This document shows positions 4,549-32,152 of a DNA stretch of 43,221 nucleotides, in pieces. The position numbers and the translations under genes are program-made. The notes under the pieces are model-generated. The model saw only the letters and a program-made list of their open reading frames with translations, made no database searches and was not told where the DNA came from. How positions within the stretch are numbered: the stretch's first letter is position 1; every line of letters starts with the position of its first letter. Source of the DNA: Candidatus Competibacteraceae bacterium (GTDB lineage: Bacteria > Bacteroidota > Bacteroidia > CAIKAF01); contig JACSSC010000016.1 of assembly GCA_014879445.1 (NCBI GenBank), positions 1 through 43,221 of the forward strand. The letters run 5' to 3'.

Positions 4549-6060
4549 TCAGTATGTGAGTTGCAATCGTCCGTATCCATCCAATAAAAGAGAATGGCCT
4601 TCGGTTCGGAATGTAAGTAGTTGATGTTTTATATGCCGTACATTGGTTTGTGAGTTTTCAGAATGTATAATCTGAATGTCGGCAGTAATTTGAAGCGTAA
4701 TATGACCATTTGAGAAAATTTGCAATGGTTCCCAAAATCCGGTAATACGATAATGGTTTTCGGCTATACGAATTTGTTTGCCATATTGTTCAGAGATTTG
4801 ATATCTGAGAATTTCAAAAGTTCCATTCGATCTAAAAACTGCCTCGTATTCGTTTGTTTCAGCACCTTGCAGCATACTAATCGGCAAATCGGAATAGTCG
4901 GTGCGGCGAACTGTATCGGAAAGCAATACGACTTTTCTATCCTTAACATAGATGCGATGGTTAAGAACAGGGCTGAGCATGCTGGTTTGCAAACTGTCAA
5001 ACATTCTTTTTGACTTAACAGCAGCCGAGTCGGGATAAGGAATATAATAGCGAGCACCATCAAAAAGGCGTATTTCGGAAAAGGACATGTTTTTTGTTGA
5101 AAGCAGACGGAGCGTGTAAAGCCGGCTCACCATGGGTGATGATAGGATGTGCTCATTATATCCCGGTTTTAGGGTGAAGCTTGCTTCGGGCCTGCCGGCG
5201 ATTGAGAGAATCACTTTTTGTACAAATCCCAACTCCGGTTTGTTTTCAATTCCATTCCATAAAGCAATGCGTGTTACCGGTGTAAATGCTTCAAATGCCA
5301 GATTGATTTTGTGTTCTATTCTATCTTTTACATTCCAGCCCGTATGGCTATTTCCATCCGTAATCAAACGGCTGTCAGTACTGCTCCACATATTGATTTT
5401 GGCTTTGCGAACAGGAATGGCTTTTACGGGTATTAATTGGTTATTGTTATCCATGAATTTAAGCTCGGCCAAGGCAAAACTACGTGAATTATAATGCGAG
5501 GCGTATGTCATGTAAGCAATACGAGTAGTGCTTGTTGTGTCCTGTTGAAATGGTGGTTTTACGCTGTTCAATCCATCTGCATCAATGGCTCTGATTTTGA
5601 TTTTATAAATAGGGAAGGATAGCGGGATGTTAGCATTGGCAGGGTAAATGCCCGATATGGAGTCGTTGAGCGTAACTTCGAGTTGCGACACACGAGCCAC
5701 AATAAAACTGTCAATAGGCAAAATTTGTAAACGAGCTGCTTGAAGTGCAGAGAAATGAAATTCAATCCATTCACCGGCATGAAGCCCTGATTCGGAAAAC
5801 CATCCGGTATTGTCATTCCCATCGAAAAGTTGTTGTAGTCCGAATTCACTTACGGGTTCACGCTGTGAAGAAACGCGTTGGTGCATAGGGTATATCGAAG
5901 AATCAGGACCTTTTTCTATATAGGCCTTATAGTCCATAGAATCTAGCTCGGGTATAGAAATACGATTATTATTTTTCGTTCCGCAACGACTAATAATCAA
6001 TCCGGATAGAATAAAAACCGATGTTAATAAAACCCGATGACGATAGTGTATTTTCCTCAC
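4549..6060 (-). CDS. Exported envelope protein with two discoidin-like/glycan-binding modules
   Basis: A 503-residue exported protein of unknown function. A GTG start gives a basic N-terminus and a hydrophobic stretch ending in LIISRCG; Cys26 could be lipidated, although Arg just before it is not a standard lipobox residue. Two related modules are visible. The first (about 65-130) contains LFDGNDNTGWFSES followed by GEWIEFHFS; the second (about 225-300) contains LITDGNSHTGWNVKD and then HKINLAFEAF. A 'D-G-x-x-x-T-G-W ... hydrophobic strand' layout is typical of F5/8 type C (discoidin) and NADase-type glycan-binding domains. The C-terminal part (about 370-503) is beta-rich and resembles nothing I know. 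An envelope or carbohydrate-binding role is inference. The gene is divergent from the M15 peptidase across 41 bases. Confidence 0.72.
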   Translation of the reverse strand: MRKIHYRHRVLLTSVFILSGLIISRCGTKNNNRISIPELDSMDYKAYIEKGPDSSIYPMHQRVSSQREPVSEFGLQQLFDGNDNTGWFSESGLHAGEWIEFHFSALQAARLQILPIDSFIVARVSQLEVTLNDSISGIYPANANIPLSFPIYKIKIRAIDADGLNSVKPPFQQDTTSTTRIAYMTYASHYNSRSFALAELKFMDNNNQLIPVKAIPVRKAKINMWSSTDSRLITDGNSHTGWNVKDRIEHKINLAFEAFTPVTRIALWNGIENKPELGFVQKVILSIAGRPEASFTLKPGYNEHILSSPMVSRLYTLRLLSTKNMSFSEIRLFDGARYYIPYPDSAAVKSKRMFDSLQTSMLSPVLNHRIYVKDRKVVLLSDTVRRTDYSDLPISMLQGAETNEYEAVFRSNGTFEILRYQISEQYGKQIRIAENHYRITGFWEPLQIFSNGHITLQITADIQIIHSENSQTNVRHIKHQLLTFRTEGHSLLLDGYGRLQLTY

Positions 6061-26746: not shown

Positions 26747-27053
26747 GGGCTTAATATTCAAATGTTATTTTTTTTGTTTTGAAATAATTACTTGCCGATG
26801 ATGACATGATGGAATAATTTGAGTTTAAAATGGCTTTAATATTCTGTTTTTTGTAAAATGGAGCGTATTTAGATTTTATCAATATGGTATGAATGCGCAG
26901 TCGGGATGACAGGATGCTAAGTAGAAACTGCCGGATACTAAAAACAACAACGAGGGAAGTTAAACTCATCTTACATTTGAATTATAGTCGTGTTTGTTTT
27001 TGGCGAATCATAACATTGACAAAGTTAAACTAACCTCTAATGAAATCGGGAAC
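26747..27053. other. 307-base gap between tcdA and pcm
   Basis: No convincing gene. A 72-codon minus-strand frame (26751-26969) is Ser/Ile/Leu-rich without a recognisable domain and ends five bases before the tcdA ATG. An exact TAACTTTG -7 element lies at 27020-27027 on the minus strand, so the stretch would be transcribed as a long leader of tcdA. I see no recognisable riboswitch. Confidence 0.4.
27020..27027 (-). promoter_or_regulatory. Bacteroidota -7 element far upstream of tcdA
   Basis: The minus strand reads TAACTTTG, identical to the elements in front of pcm and radC. Transcription from it runs towards tcdA through a leader of about 265 bases. Confidence 0.45.
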
Positions 27054-27068
27054 TTAAGTTCCCGATTT
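27043..27068. terminator. 26-base perfect palindrome over the pcm stop codon
   Basis: The arm AAATCGGGAACTT is followed directly by its reverse complement, with no spacer. The last codons and TAA stop of pcm lie inside it. On the plus strand it is followed by a T-run (GTTTTTTAG); on the minus strand only a few T residues follow. A hairpin that ends pcm transcription is the simplest reading. Confidence 0.6.
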
Positions 27069-27701
27069 GTTTTTTAGCATAGGCACAAAACGATAATTGC
27101 CTTCGTCACTAATATTAATTTCACCTTCGTTATTCTTTCGAATTACTTTCATGATTTGTACATCTCCTTCACCAACCGGAATCACCATGATTCCTCCGGG
27201 CTTGAGTTGTTTAACCAATGCATCAGGTATTTCGGGGGCACCACAAGTAACTAAAATTCTGTCGAACGGGGCAAATGCCGGCAGACCTGCATATCCATCA
27301 CCAAAGAAAAATTTGGGATGGTATTTCATCTGTGTGAGCTGCACTTTGGCCTTTTCGTAAAGGATACGTTGGCGTTCAATGGTATAAACCCTAGCGCCCA
27401 ACTCAAGTAAAATGCATGTTTGATAGCCCGATCCAGTACCGATTTCCAATACTTTCATACCTCTTTCCAATTCAAGGAGTTCGGTTTGTCGGGCTACCGT
27501 ATAAGGTTGTGAAATGGTTTGCCCTGCGTCAATCTTAAATGCCATATCCTGATAGGCAAACTTATCGAATTGACTATCCATAAAAAAATGCCGGGGCACT
27601 TTGCCTATGGCCTGAAGTATATGGATGTTGCGAATTCCTTTTTCGGTTAGCAACGCCACTAATTGCTTACGCATTCCCTGATGTTTGAACGAATCTATCA
27701 T
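27054..27701 (-). CDS. pcm: Protein-L-isoaspartate O-methyltransferase
   Basis: A 215-residue cytoplasmic repair enzyme that methylates L-isoaspartyl residues in damaged proteins using SAM. Diagnostic segments: VPRHFFMD and FAYQDMAFKIDAGQTISQPYTVARQTELLEL before motif I, motif I VLEIGTGSGYQTCILLELGARVYTIER, then FFFGDGYAGLPAFAPFDRILVTCGAPEIPDALVKQLKPGGIMVIPVG. The length is normal for the family. ATG 27701 is preceded by an exact -7 element. Confidence 0.96.
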   Translation of the reverse strand: MIDSFKHQGMRKQLVALLTEKGIRNIHILQAIGKVPRHFFMDSQFDKFAYQDMAFKIDAGQTISQPYTVARQTELLELERGMKVLEIGTGSGYQTCILLELGARVYTIERQRILYEKAKVQLTQMKYHPKFFFGDGYAGLPAFAPFDRILVTCGAPEIPDALVKQLKPGGIMVIPVGEGDVQIMKVIRKNNEGEINISDEGNYRFVPMLKNKSGT

Positions 27702-28794: not shown

Positions 28795-29659
28795 TTCGTC
28801 TCACGTCAGATTATTAAACCTCGGATCAGTAACCATACTGCTGATCGTTCTCCTGTCTTTTATGCCCATTATGAATGGATGTATAGACAAAGCCGAAATA
28901 CCTGCTTTTCTTCGTATTGATTCGATTGTTTTAGATTCGACCAGCTATGACTCTACCGGATCGGTTTCAAGTAAAATCAAATCCGCATGGGTGTACGTAG
29001 ATGATAATTTGCAGGGAGTGTATCAGTTACCTTTTCGTGTTCCAATCATAAAAAATGGAACATCTAATCTGAAAATATATGCAGGAGTTAATGAGAACGG
29101 GCTCTCTGAGCAGTTTCTCCGATATCCTTTTTATCAGCGCGACGAAATGATAGTGGATTTTGTTCCAGGTGATACCCTCACGGTTGTGCCACATGTGCGA
29201 TATAACAAAGGTCTGAAAATTCCATATATCGAAGATTTTAATGTGGATTTTACACAATCTATTTATAAAGATCAGGGAGGAGGGTATTTCGATTTTTTAT
29301 TGGATGCTTCTAAAGCTTTTGAAGGCAACGGTTGCGGCTATTTTTATCTGGGATCCAACGAGCCAGCTCTAATCTGCACTACCAAGGTTATTTATACACC
29401 TAAAAACCAGTTTGCTTATACCGTCGAGTTTAATTATAAAAACAATTGCGACTTTTTAGTGGGCCTGCGAACAGCCCAATCCGGTGAAACTATTTTGGGC
29501 ATTAGGCCAAGAACTGAATGGAATAAAATGTATATGAATATTACACCTGTAGTTGATGTATTACCTGGTACAGACCTGCAAATTTTCTTTATTATTCCTC
29601 AAGATACTTTGGTACCTATACAGGAGGTCTTCATCGATAACCTGAAATTGATTTATTGA
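28787..29659 (+). CDS. Lipoprotein of unknown function in the envelope-glycan operon
   Basis: A 290-residue exported lipoprotein: after a hydrophobic stretch (VTILLIVLLSFMPIMNGC) Cys32 sits in a usable lipobox (M-N-G-C). The mature protein is beta-rich; I recognise no domain, though the middle (SAWVYVDDNLQGVYQLPFRVPII) looks like a surface beta-sandwich and the second half (FNVDFTQSIYKDQGGGYFDF...) resembles a jelly-roll. In-frame TTG 28766 and ATG 28775 are alternatives; ATG 28787 overlaps the previous stop by eight bases and leaves the best signal peptide. It lies between an oxidoreductase and a sugar transferase and overlaps the latter by one base. Confidence 0.75.
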   Translation: MLNSSHVRLLNLGSVTILLIVLLSFMPIMNGCIDKAEIPAFLRIDSIVLDSTSYDSTGSVSSKIKSAWVYVDDNLQGVYQLPFRVPIIKNGTSNLKIYAGVNENGLSEQFLRYPFYQRDEMIVDFVPGDTLTVVPHVRYNKGLKIPYIEDFNVDFTQSIYKDQGGGYFDFLLDASKAFEGNGCGYFYLGSNEPALICTTKVIYTPKNQFAYTVEFNYKNNCDFLVGLRTAQSGETILGIRPRTEWNKMYMNITPVVDVLPGTDLQIFFIIPQDTLVPIQEVFIDNLKLIY

Positions 29660-31077
29660 TGAAGAATAAGCCCTTACAGGTTCTCAAATACGTTTTTCTT
29701 GATTTTTTGGCTGCCGAAATGGCCTGGGTACTCTTTTATCTTTTTCGAAAAAAAGTAATTGAGCCGAGAGTAATAGGTATGGAAATTCCATTTGTACCTG
29801 ACCTCAATTTTTGGCTCGGTACTTTTTTTATTCCTTTGTTTTGGATTATTCTTTCTTGGATGTCGGGATATTATCGTGATATCTACCGCCGTTCACGTAT
29901 CGTAGAATTGGGACAGACGCTTCTTACTACATTAGTGGGTACGCTCATTTTATTCTTTCTTCTTTTTCTGGATGATGTGGTTGATACCTACAAAAGTTAT
30001 TATCAAAGTGTATTGGTGTATTTTGGTATGCAGTTTATTTTTACGTATTCGTTTCGCCTATTTCTTACTTCGCAAACTATACGAAAAATCAGAAGAGGAA
30101 ACATTGGATTTCAAACGATTATTATCGGTAGCAAAAATAAAGCAATATCTCTTTATCATTCTATCAAAAATCAAAAACAACCTTCAGGCAACATGTTTGC
30201 CGGTTTTGTCAGTATTGATACTGATCACCATTCAGATTTGGCAAATCACATTCCTTATCTCGGCAACATAAGTAAAATCAAATCTATTATATTATATCAT
30301 CGTATCGAAGAAGTGATGGTTGCAGTGGAGCCCGATGAGCAAAATGTACTTCAACGACTCATTACTCAATTGGATGAAAAGAATGTAATGATTAAAGTTA
30401 CTCCTGATATGTATGATATATTATCAGGATCGGTGCGTTTCAATTCCATTTTTGGCACTCCTTTGATTGAAGTGAATGCTGTAGTAATGCCTCAATGGCA
30501 ACAATCGCTAAAACGCCTACTGGATGTTTCTGTTTCATTGTTGATGTTGATTATATTGTCGCCTTTGTTTGCTATATTAGCCATTCTCATTAAATCCGAT
30601 AGCCCTGGTTATATTATTTATCGTCAACAACGTATTGGTCGTTATGGTAAACCTTTTACTATTTTTAAGTTTCGTTCCATGAGAGTGGATGCTGAAAAAA
30701 ACGGGCCTGCTCTTTCTTCAGAAAATGATAACCGCATGACTCCTATTGGGCGTTTTCTTCGAAAATTCCGCCTTGATGAATTGCCTCAGTTTTATAATGT
30801 ACTGAAAGGCGATATGTCATTGGTTGGTCCTAGGCCTGAACGCCAGTATTATATTGACTTGATAGTGGAAAAAGCGCCTCAATATCGCTTATTGCAACGT
30901 GTGAGGCCTGGTATTACCTCTTGGGGGCAAGTTAAATTCGGATACGCAGAAAATGTCAATCAAATGATTGAAAGGTTAAAATTTGATTTACTGTATATCG
31001 AAAATATGTCACTTTTGCTCGATTTTAAAATATTGATATACACAATTTTAACAATTATTAAAGCAGAGGGTAAATAA
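29659..31077 (+). CDS. Polyprenyl-phosphate sugar-1-phosphate transferase (WcaJ-like)
   Basis: A 472-residue inner-membrane enzyme that starts glycan assembly by moving a sugar-1-phosphate from a nucleotide sugar to undecaprenyl phosphate. Four N-terminal membrane segments (about 10-150) are followed by a CoA-binding-like cytoplasmic domain (about 150-270), a further membrane helix (VSVSLLMLIILSPLFAILAILI) and the bacterial sugar transferase core: YRQQRIGRYGKPFTIFKFRSM, RRFLRKFRLDELPQ-type helix, GDMSLVGPRPE and VRPGITSWGQV. The start is ATG 29659, overlapping the previous TGA by one base; TTG 29656 is less likely. The donor sugar cannot be told from sequence. Confidence 0.93.
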   Translation: MKNKPLQVLKYVFLDFLAAEMAWVLFYLFRKKVIEPRVIGMEIPFVPDLNFWLGTFFIPLFWIILSWMSGYYRDIYRRSRIVELGQTLLTTLVGTLILFFLLFLDDVVDTYKSYYQSVLVYFGMQFIFTYSFRLFLTSQTIRKIRRGNIGFQTIIIGSKNKAISLYHSIKNQKQPSGNMFAGFVSIDTDHHSDLANHIPYLGNISKIKSIILYHRIEEVMVAVEPDEQNVLQRLITQLDEKNVMIKVTPDMYDILSGSVRFNSIFGTPLIEVNAVVMPQWQQSLKRLLDVSVSLLMLIILSPLFAILAILIKSDSPGYIIYRQQRIGRYGKPFTIFKFRSMRVDAEKNGPALSSENDNRMTPIGRFLRKFRLDELPQFYNVLKGDMSLVGPRPERQYYIDLIVEKAPQYRLLQRVRPGITSWGQVKFGYAENVNQMIERLKFDLLYIENMSLLLDFKILIYTILTIIKAEGK

Positions 31078-31092
31078 AAACTAGGCAAAATA

Positions 31093-31124
31093 TTTGGTAG
31101 AAATAAAAATGCATTTTACATTTG
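31093..31124 (+). promoter_or_regulatory. Full two-box Bacteroidota promoter (TTTG-20-TACATTTG)
   Basis: TTTG at 31093-31096, a spacer of exactly 20 bases, then TACATTTG at 31117-31124 match the -33 and -7 consensus of the Bacteroidota primary sigma factor. No other promoter in the window shows both boxes at the right spacing. It does not lead directly into a gene: a terminator follows about 60 bases later. Confidence 0.7.
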
Positions 31125-31135
31125 TATTGTAAAAT
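31113..31135. promoter_or_regulatory. Palindrome overlapping the promoter (candidate operator)
   Basis: ATTTTACA (31113-31120) and TGTAAAAT (31128-31135) are perfect inverted repeats with a seven-base spacer, lying across the -7 box and the expected start of transcription. A dimeric repressor site is the natural reading. Confidence 0.45.
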
Positions 31136-31219
31136 TGATTATAGTTTATTTCACTATATAAAATTTAATTAGGGTTGGTTTACGAAAGGCGTCTCCAAAA
31201 AGGGGCGCTTTTCGTTTTT
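31131..31219 (+). ncRNA. Predicted small RNA between promoter and terminator
   Basis: From the expected start (about 31131) to the end of the terminator T-run is about 90 nt. The stretch contains no ATG. It starts AT-rich and ends in the GC-rich terminator hairpin, the usual layout of a bacterial small RNA. The downstream gene has its own TATCTTTG element beyond the terminator. A 5' leader with an attenuator for that gene is the alternative. No known RNA family was recognised. Confidence 0.45.
31183..31219 (+). terminator. Intrinsic terminator of the predicted small RNA
   Basis: CGAAAGGCGTCTC pairs over 13 positions (three of them G-T) with GGGGCGCTTTTCG across a six-base loop, followed by five T residues. 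It lies 106 bases after the sugar transferase stop and could also end that operon. Confidence 0.8.
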
Positions 31220-31237
31220 AGTCATTTCAAATTCTTA

Positions 31238-31245
31238 TATCTTTG
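31238..31245 (+). promoter_or_regulatory. Bacteroidota -7 element upstream of the 3-hydroxyacyl-CoA dehydrogenase
   Basis: TATCTTTG matches TAnnTTTG, lies just after the terminator and 19 bases before ATG 31265. Confidence 0.6.
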
Positions 31246-31264
31246 TTCCTCCTAAAATTATCGT

Positions 31265-32152
31265 ATGAATAAAATTGCTGTTATTGGAGCCGGAACCATG
31301 GGAAATGGAATTGCTCATGTATTTGCTATGCATGGATATAAAGTATCATTGATTGATGTTTCGCAGCCAGCATTAGATAAAGCGCTATCAACCATCCAAA
31401 AAAATACAGACAGAATGATAGCTAAGGGCTCTTTTACGGAAGAAGCAAAAGCATCCATGCTGCAGAATCTAACCCTGTTTACCCATATCGCAGAGGGCGT
31501 ATATGGAGCAGAATTAGTGGTTGAAGCTGCTACAGAAAATATTGATTTGAAGCTCAAGATTTTTAAAGAATTAGATCAGGTAGCGCCTGAAGGTGCGATT
31601 TTGGCCTCCAATACTTCTTCTATATCCATAACCCGAATTGCTGCTGTTACAAGTCGCCCTCAGCTCGTTATTGGTATGCATTTTATGAATCCGGTCCCTG
31701 TGATGAAATTGGTAGAAATCATCAATGGATACAGTACCCACACAGAGATAACAAATCAGATTGTAAATGTTTCAAAGGCGTTGGGTAAAATTCCGGTAGT
31801 AGTTAATGACTATCCAGGTTTTGTCGCTAATCGCATTCTCATGCCCATGATTAATGAAGCTGTTTATGCCTTGTTTGAAGGAGTAGCCGGCGTTGAAGAG
31901 ATTGATACTGTGATGAAATTAGGTATGGCTCATCCTATGGGTCCATTACAATTAGCAGATTTTATTGGATTAGATGTTTGCTATTCTATTTTGCAGGTAC
32001 TATATGATGGGTTTGGTAATCCCAAATATGCGCCTTGTCCGTTATTGACCAATATGGTAACAGCTGGAAAACTGGGTGTGAAATCGGGCGAAGGATTCTA
32101 TATGCATACTCCCGGATCCAAAGAACTGATTGCTTCTCCTCAATTTAAATAA
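31265..32152 (+). CDS. hbd: 3-hydroxybutyryl-CoA dehydrogenase
   Basis: A 295-residue NAD(P)-dependent dehydrogenase that interconverts 3-hydroxyacyl-CoA and acetoacetyl-CoA-type products in short-chain acyl-CoA metabolism. The nucleotide-binding motif is IAVIGAGTMGNGIAHVFAMHGYKVSLID. The catalytic region GMHFMNPVPVMKLVEII (His and Glu of the family), VNDYPGFVANRILMPMINEA and the C-terminal AHPMGPLQLADFIGLDVC ... KSGEGFY complete the 3HCDH pattern. Length is typical of the stand-alone bacterial enzyme. Start ATG at 31265 with its own -7 element. It faces the GT117 gene tail to tail. Confidence 0.94.
   Translation: MNKIAVIGAGTMGNGIAHVFAMHGYKVSLIDVSQPALDKALSTIQKNTDRMIAKGSFTEEAKASMLQNLTLFTHIAEGVYGAELVVEAATENIDLKLKIFKELDQVAPEGAILASNTSSISITRIAAVTSRPQLVIGMHFMNPVPVMKLVEIINGYSTHTEITNQIVNVSKALGKIPVVVNDYPGFVANRILMPMINEAVYALFEGVAGVEEIDTVMKLGMAHPMGPLQLADFIGLDVCYSILQVLYDGFGNPKYAPCPLLTNMVTAGKLGVKSGEGFYMHTPGSKELIASPQFK

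Follow-up and report, generated by a model that had tools for sequence, protein, structure and literature searches.

The 187-base gap at positions 31078-31264 of the stretch analysed here (the window, 43,221 nucleotides (nt) of contig JACSSC010000016.1 from a member of the Bacteroidota) very probably encodes a real, previously uncatalogued small RNA (sRNA) gene, as judged by comparison with related genomes. A first-pass annotation had proposed in this gap, the limits of which proved correct, a regulated small RNA with its own promoter and terminator. The gene itself is strongly supported by the comparison; its regulation through a palindrome at the promoter is not. We assign a probability of about 0.55 to the reading that the gene produces a trans-acting sRNA whose seed pairs with a second RNA, here termed RNA-2, which would be made beside a LytTR response-regulator gene and would probably serve as a sponge. 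Transcription, pairing in vivo, binding by the regulator and the role of RNA-2 as a sponge rather than a target are all points that we infer from sequence. The predicted sRNA and its parts are as follows.

31130-31219, + strand: predicted sRNA transcript of about 90 nt, its start placed from the -7 box
31140-31158, + strand: weak 5' hairpin (UAUAGU...ACUAUA), from predicted folds
31169-31182, + strand: invariant 14-mer UUAGGGUUGGUUUA, the proposed seed, identical in 8 of 8 orthologues
31182-31219, + strand: intrinsic terminator, 13-14 pairs followed by a U-run

The comparison covered 16 species of the family, eight sRNA-positive and eight sRNA-negative, and a wider sample of 395 genomes of the class. 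The genome of the window (G000) belongs to genus g1 together with G001, G002 and G003; genus g4 is represented by G006 and G010, and genus g5, which holds carriers and non-carriers, contributes the carriers G012 and G013. The block 31162-31220, in which the 14-mer is directly followed by the terminator, was found in 8 of the 16 family species, spread over three genera. Within g1 its identity to G000 is 98, 95 and 83%, against 53-59% for the promoter stretch and 77-80% for neighbouring coding sequence. The corresponding gap of G001, G002 and G003 retains CTATATAAAATTTAATTAGGGTTGGTTTACGAAAGGCGTCTCC...GGGGCGCTTTTCGTTTTT with minor changes only, the g5 carriers have TTAGTTAGGGTTGGTTTAAGGAGAGCGTC and a hairpin at the equivalent position, and a pattern search gave two further copies, in G006 and G010, at a different locus. 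A covariance model built from the motif and the terminator scored 68-86 bits for the eight orthologues, whereas nothing else in the 395 class genomes exceeded 38 bits, the matches below about 38 bits being mostly generic terminators. G000 contains one strong match, and the sRNA is single copy in that genome. The family consists of uncultured metagenome-assembled genomes (MAGs) labelled Flavobacteriales, and the sRNA is restricted to this one family; among GTDB contigs its exact form occurs only in seven MAG records labelled Flavobacteriales or Bacteroidia, which are probably the same carrier species. Rfam, searched at E<=1 in a release that may lack FopS, gave no credible family for the window region, for the sRNA in its orthologues or for RNA-2.

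The 14-mer is composed of G and U only, save two A, and is largely unpaired in the predicted folds of the eight species (mean unpaired probability 0.42-0.93). In the terminator stem 98% of cells are paired across the same species, and three pairs have changed on both sides. The terminator with its T-run was correctly annotated (stem 31182-31215, T-run reaching 31219) and is the strongest among 14 terminator-like sites in the 25-43 kb part of the window. The product 31131-31222 has a folding z of -4.8, and the region of about 31131-31219 is indeed free of ATG. The 5' hairpin is predicted in G000, and hairpins of other sequence take its place in G001 and g5; neither the predicted folds of G002 and G003 nor g4 have one, and this absence from several carriers indicates that the hairpin is dispensable.

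A search for near-complete complements of the 14-mer revealed, in G001 and G002, sites that come in pairs spaced by about 25 nt, and so led to RNA-2.

G000:C36 about 4590-4790 (a contig other than that of the window), L182 about 1390-1590, L220 about 2330-2530; also L221-L226: RNA-2

RNA-2 is about 150-190 nt long and intergenic, lying just downstream of the LytTR response-regulator gene, which encodes PF00072 and PF04397 domains and is itself preceded by a metallo-beta-lactamase-fold gene. Three species share an identical RNA-2 5' block, CGTTCTTAyAATCGTTTTCATAGTGGGAGG, and the block TTTCATAGTGGGAGGwAACC occurs in RNA-2 downstream of all seven regulator orthologues. In the predicted fold a long helix, AACC..AGG.CCGGUAGU with ACUACCGG.CC..GGUU, closes a loop of 56-100 nt, and 3 of the 8 helix pairs counted show two-sided changes. 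The loop contains 14-mers that pair with the sRNA motif at 13 or 14 of 14 positions in 7/7 species, and all five g1 and g4 species with RNA-2 have two such sites, each of at least 12/14. Among random 95-nt tiles, 31/908 (3.4%) reach 13/14 and 15/908 hold two sites. RNA-2 was discovered through g1 only, so that g4 and g5 constitute independent tests. Many of the changes from one site to another replace C by U or A by G, and wobble then keeps the pair. According to the predicted folds the sites are for the most part unpaired (0.44-0.80), and the duplex energy was better than that of shuffled RNA-2 in six of the seven species, being equalled by 0-5 of 500 shuffles in five of them and by 18/500 in G000. 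Taken on sequence comparison, RNA-2 is rather probably a real partner of the sRNA.

The distribution of the parts points in the same direction. Of the 8 sRNA-positive species 7 have both RNA-2 and the regulator, and none of the 8 relatives that lack the sRNA has either; the 5' block of RNA-2 was found in exactly 7/395 class genomes, every one of them sRNA-positive. Regulator orthologues (E<1e-100) occur in G000, G001, G002, G006, G010, G012 and G013; remoter LytTR paralogues, at E 1e-67 or weaker, are found in two non-carriers as well as in carriers. For co-occurrence within the family the Fisher p is 0.0014, a figure not to be taken at face value because there have been few independent gains or losses.

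LytTR regulators bind direct repeats about two helical turns apart. Upstream of RNA-2, G001, G002, G006 and G010 have direct repeats with a period of 21 bases, TACTAATT-N13-TAaTAATT (or TGCTAATT, TACTAATT), always at the same distance ahead of a TACATTTG -7 box; in G000 the spacing and the first repeat are retained and the second repeat has diverged. No repeat pair of this type occurred in 616 background tiles of the window. At the promoter of the sRNA itself, LytTR-like repeats were absent from seven of the eight species, with one isolated match in G001. We suggest that the adjacent LytTR regulator would bind the RNA-2 repeats, with TACTAATT-N13-TAATAATT as the candidate site.

Our working model is that a Bacteroidota-type promoter and an intrinsic terminator of its own would yield a trans-acting sRNA, the unpaired 14-mer UUAGGGUUGGUUUA being the working part that base-pairs with other RNAs. 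The active response regulator would bind the direct repeats upstream of RNA-2, RNA-2 would be made, and its loop would capture the sRNA and so lift the effect of the latter on mRNAs. The sites in RNA-2 have drifted, but the sRNA motif has stayed invariant; this suggests that the sRNA is a hub with further partners and RNA-2 the sponge. We regard as tentative the complete circuit, in which a two-site, stem-closed loop under LytTR control would capture a single conserved sRNA and the three parts would be inherited together. A number of observations weigh against the sponge reading. Neither the start-codon search nor the search for near-perfect complements gave an mRNA target of the sRNA. The g5 RNA-2 is without direct repeats and without a clear -7 box, and its site has one mismatch; the duplex energy in G010 is not better than that of shuffles (91/500); covariation in the RNA-2 helix is at the 5% level when set against shuffles; and, except in G001 and G002, the single-species loop-shuffle tests are modest, with the observed pairing reached by 3-6% of shuffles. 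G003 carries the sRNA with no regulator or RNA-2 found in an assembly fragmented into 340 contigs, the explanation being either that fragmentation or a real absence. Moreover, the independent events are few, since g5 is split into carriers and non-carriers and the remaining species may share descent.

A rival explanation, which we think unlikely, is that this is an ordinary trans-acting sRNA with other mRNA targets and that RNA-2 is unrelated, its complementarity a coincidence in A/C-rich loops. The evidence for the sRNA stands without a partner, a 14-mer of nearly only G and U finds wobble pairing easy (the 3.4% of random tiles noted above), and the motif is more rigid than pairing with RNA-2 requires, which implies other partners. 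Coincidence does not readily account, however, for sites in all three genera when the loops are otherwise unalignable, for two sites in five species, or for a presence of RNA-2 that follows that of the sRNA in 7/8. The roles might also be reversed, with RNA-2 the effector through its invariant 5' block UUUCAUAGUGGGAGGAAACC and the sRNA of the window its antagonist or sponge. The 5' block is conserved at least as well as the sRNA motif, and it is RNA-2 to which the regulator gene is tied; yet a pure antagonist needs no letter-invariant motif while the paired sites drift by wobble, and a layout with two sites, as in RNA-2, is usual for a sponge. We hold such a reversal to be improbable.

The first-pass annotation had found no clear target for the small RNA. 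As regards mRNAs this still holds, and what was found instead is the probable partner RNA. Sites with AAACCAACC just before an ATG gave no convincing targets: they exceeded a reversed-pattern control about 1.3-fold, in carriers and non-carriers alike, and sampled AAACCAACC sites in the G000 genome were not convincing start regions. Full complements of the 14-mer, at most 2 mismatches being allowed, were not enriched but fewer than in the control, and no general excess of tandem AAACyAAyC sites was seen outside RNA-2.

The remaining explanations concern the gene itself and turn on its promoter and surroundings, for which the relevant features are these.

29656-31077, + strand: exopolysaccharide polyprenyl glycosylphosphotransferase (sugar transferase), upstream of the gap, TIGR03025 above cut-off, PF02397
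31093-31096, + strand: -33 box TTTG of the sRNA promoter
31117-31124, + strand: -7 box TACATTTG of the sRNA promoter
31238-31245, + strand: separate -7 box TATCTTTG of the dehydrogenase gene, position kept in G003, G001 and G002
31265-32152, + strand: 3-hydroxybutyryl-CoA dehydrogenase, downstream of the gap, PF02737 (3HCDH_N) and PF00725 (3HCDH)

The two-box promoter is present as annotated (TTTG, 20 bases, TACATTTG). It had also been described as the only one in the window, which is not so: TTTG-N18-21-TAnnTTTG has four matches where 2.0 are expected by chance, and four or more were reached in 12/100 shuffles of the window. With the match so near chance, what makes the promoter credible is solely its retention in relatives. 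The -7 box is a perfect TAnnTTTG in 6/8 orthologues and TACTTTTA in the remaining two, and TTTG lies 18-20 nt ahead of it in 6/8; in G001 and G002 the -7 box is perfect, but TTTG lies closer to it. From the end of the -7 box to the 14-mer there are 41-44 nt in g1, 33 in g5 and 5 in g4, so that transcription in g4 is expected to begin with the motif itself and to give an RNA of some 50 nt. In g1 and g5 the sRNA lies between the sugar transferase gene and hbd, and in both g4 species behind murF with a convergent gene next.

In g1 and g5 the terminator-ended sRNA is upstream of the dehydrogenase gene, as would be a leader or attenuator of that gene. We consider this hardly credible. The dehydrogenase has, as the first-pass annotation had it, its own -7 element past the terminator, conserved as TACCTTTG/TATTTTTG/TATTTTTG in relatives; in g5 the distance to the dehydrogenase expands to about 250 nt; and the g4 copies exclude an attenuator of the dehydrogenase, as with murF ahead and a convergent gene next there is no downstream cistron to attenuate. 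It is also very improbable that the element is a mere terminator or a processed 3' untranslated region of the glycan operon with a promoter by chance. Such an origin would fit its place directly after the operon in g1 and g5, and a two-box match that alone is near chance in the window; termination, however, does not need an invariant 14-mer upstream of the stem, the promoter boxes stay while the DNA between them turns over, and in g4, at an unrelated locus, the -7 box ends 5 nt ahead of the motif. The sRNA may additionally be processed out of the operon mRNA.

Beyond a small number of gut species, hardly any of the non-coding RNA of Bacteroidota has been mapped, and the known partners of its sRNAs are few. 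In the same species, the present analysis offers a defined sRNA, a defined probable partner RNA, the pairing sites of which can be named, and a defined regulator for which specific DNA repeats are proposed. In Vibrio cholerae, the sponge RNA QrrX pairs with the conserved pairing domain of the Qrr1-4 sRNAs, and the qrrT regulator gene directly precedes that of the sponge, which the regulator activates (PMC9732341). In a similar manner, a regulator gene here adjoins a predicted non-coding RNA complementary to the proposed sRNA seed. In contrast to that system, the present circuit is proposed from sequence; QrrT is LysR-type whereas the regulator here is of the LytTR two-component type; and Qrr has four paralogues and uses Hfq whereas there is one sRNA copy here, no sequence relation being claimed. 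No Bacteroidota sponge RNA was found in the literature searched, which covers few subscription journals. If the reading is true, the RNA sponge with a dedicated regulator would extend to a phylum working without the usual RNA chaperones, and a LytTR regulator would act through RNA.

Closer relatives provide partial likenesses. FopS of Bacteroides thetaiotaomicron has a 5' single-stranded stretch followed by a Rho-independent terminator, and is reported from Bacteroidaceae at 12-15 copies per genome (PMC11697453). A single-stranded 5' stretch and a terminator, as in FopS and GibS (PMC11697453, PMC7366714), are seen in the predicted folds of the sRNA as well, but unlike multicopy FopS it is single copy in G000, is confined to another bacterial family and was unrelated in sequence in the tests run. 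A gene for an RRM_1 protein, of the RbpB kind that binds FopS, was found in all eight carriers and is missing only in two non-carriers. The Rfp sRNAs of Flavobacterium psychrophilum are independent non-coding transcripts, some of them, such as Rfp18, conserved in the genus, and Rfp18 is predicted to pair with protease mRNAs via a stem-loop of a strongly folded RNA (PMC9723704). The sRNA likewise is a genus-conserved non-coding RNA in Bacteroidota, the two being likened by description and not by sequence, and, unlike the stem-loop of Rfp18, its proposed seed is an unpaired 14-mer.

The next gene downstream had been called an acyl-CoA dehydrogenase; its domains (3HCDH_N and 3HCDH) instead mark a 3-hydroxybutyryl-CoA dehydrogenase, which scored 401.6 bits against NF004474, where the cut-off is 408. 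The palindrome at the promoter remains to be described.

31113-31135, no strand: 8+8 palindrome ATTTTACA-N7-TGTAAAAT, judged coincidental

It does overlap the promoter, as the first-pass annotation had noted. As a regulatory feature it found no support: in relatives that keep both flanking genes the promoter boxes are conserved and the palindrome is in none of them, and it was rejected as an operator, being confined to the species of the window, with 8+8 arms arising in 10-12% of dinucleotide shuffles. In both g4 species (L038, L039) a conserved inverted repeat, TTTGAC...GTCAAA, lies upstream of the sRNA -7 box and is a better operator candidate than the palindrome of the window.

Several other elements were noted. 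In g5, a conserved short RNA-like element consisting of GTTTTTCATAGTAGGTTGGTTT and then a terminator was seen in G011, G013, G014 and G015 (L072 (-), L146, L147, L148); in G011 it sits behind a clp ATPase gene. Of its sequence, TTTTCATAGTrGG also occurs at the 5' end of RNA-2, and GGTTGGTTT also in the sRNA. The g4 genomes contain two more terminators preceded by TTTGGGTTGGTTTA (L078 1501-1561 (+) and L087 (-)), which are possible sRNA paralogues. In other families of the class (L066, L049), G/T repeats GGTTTGGTTTGGTTT or GGTTAGGTTAGGTTAA stand immediately ahead of terminators; in these distant Bacteroidota the layout is thus similar to that of the sRNA. Elsewhere in the window, a perfect 11-pair hairpin AAATCGGGAACTTAAGTTCCCGATTT with a T-run, at 27043-27068, overlaps the 3' end of the gene at 27054-27701 (-).
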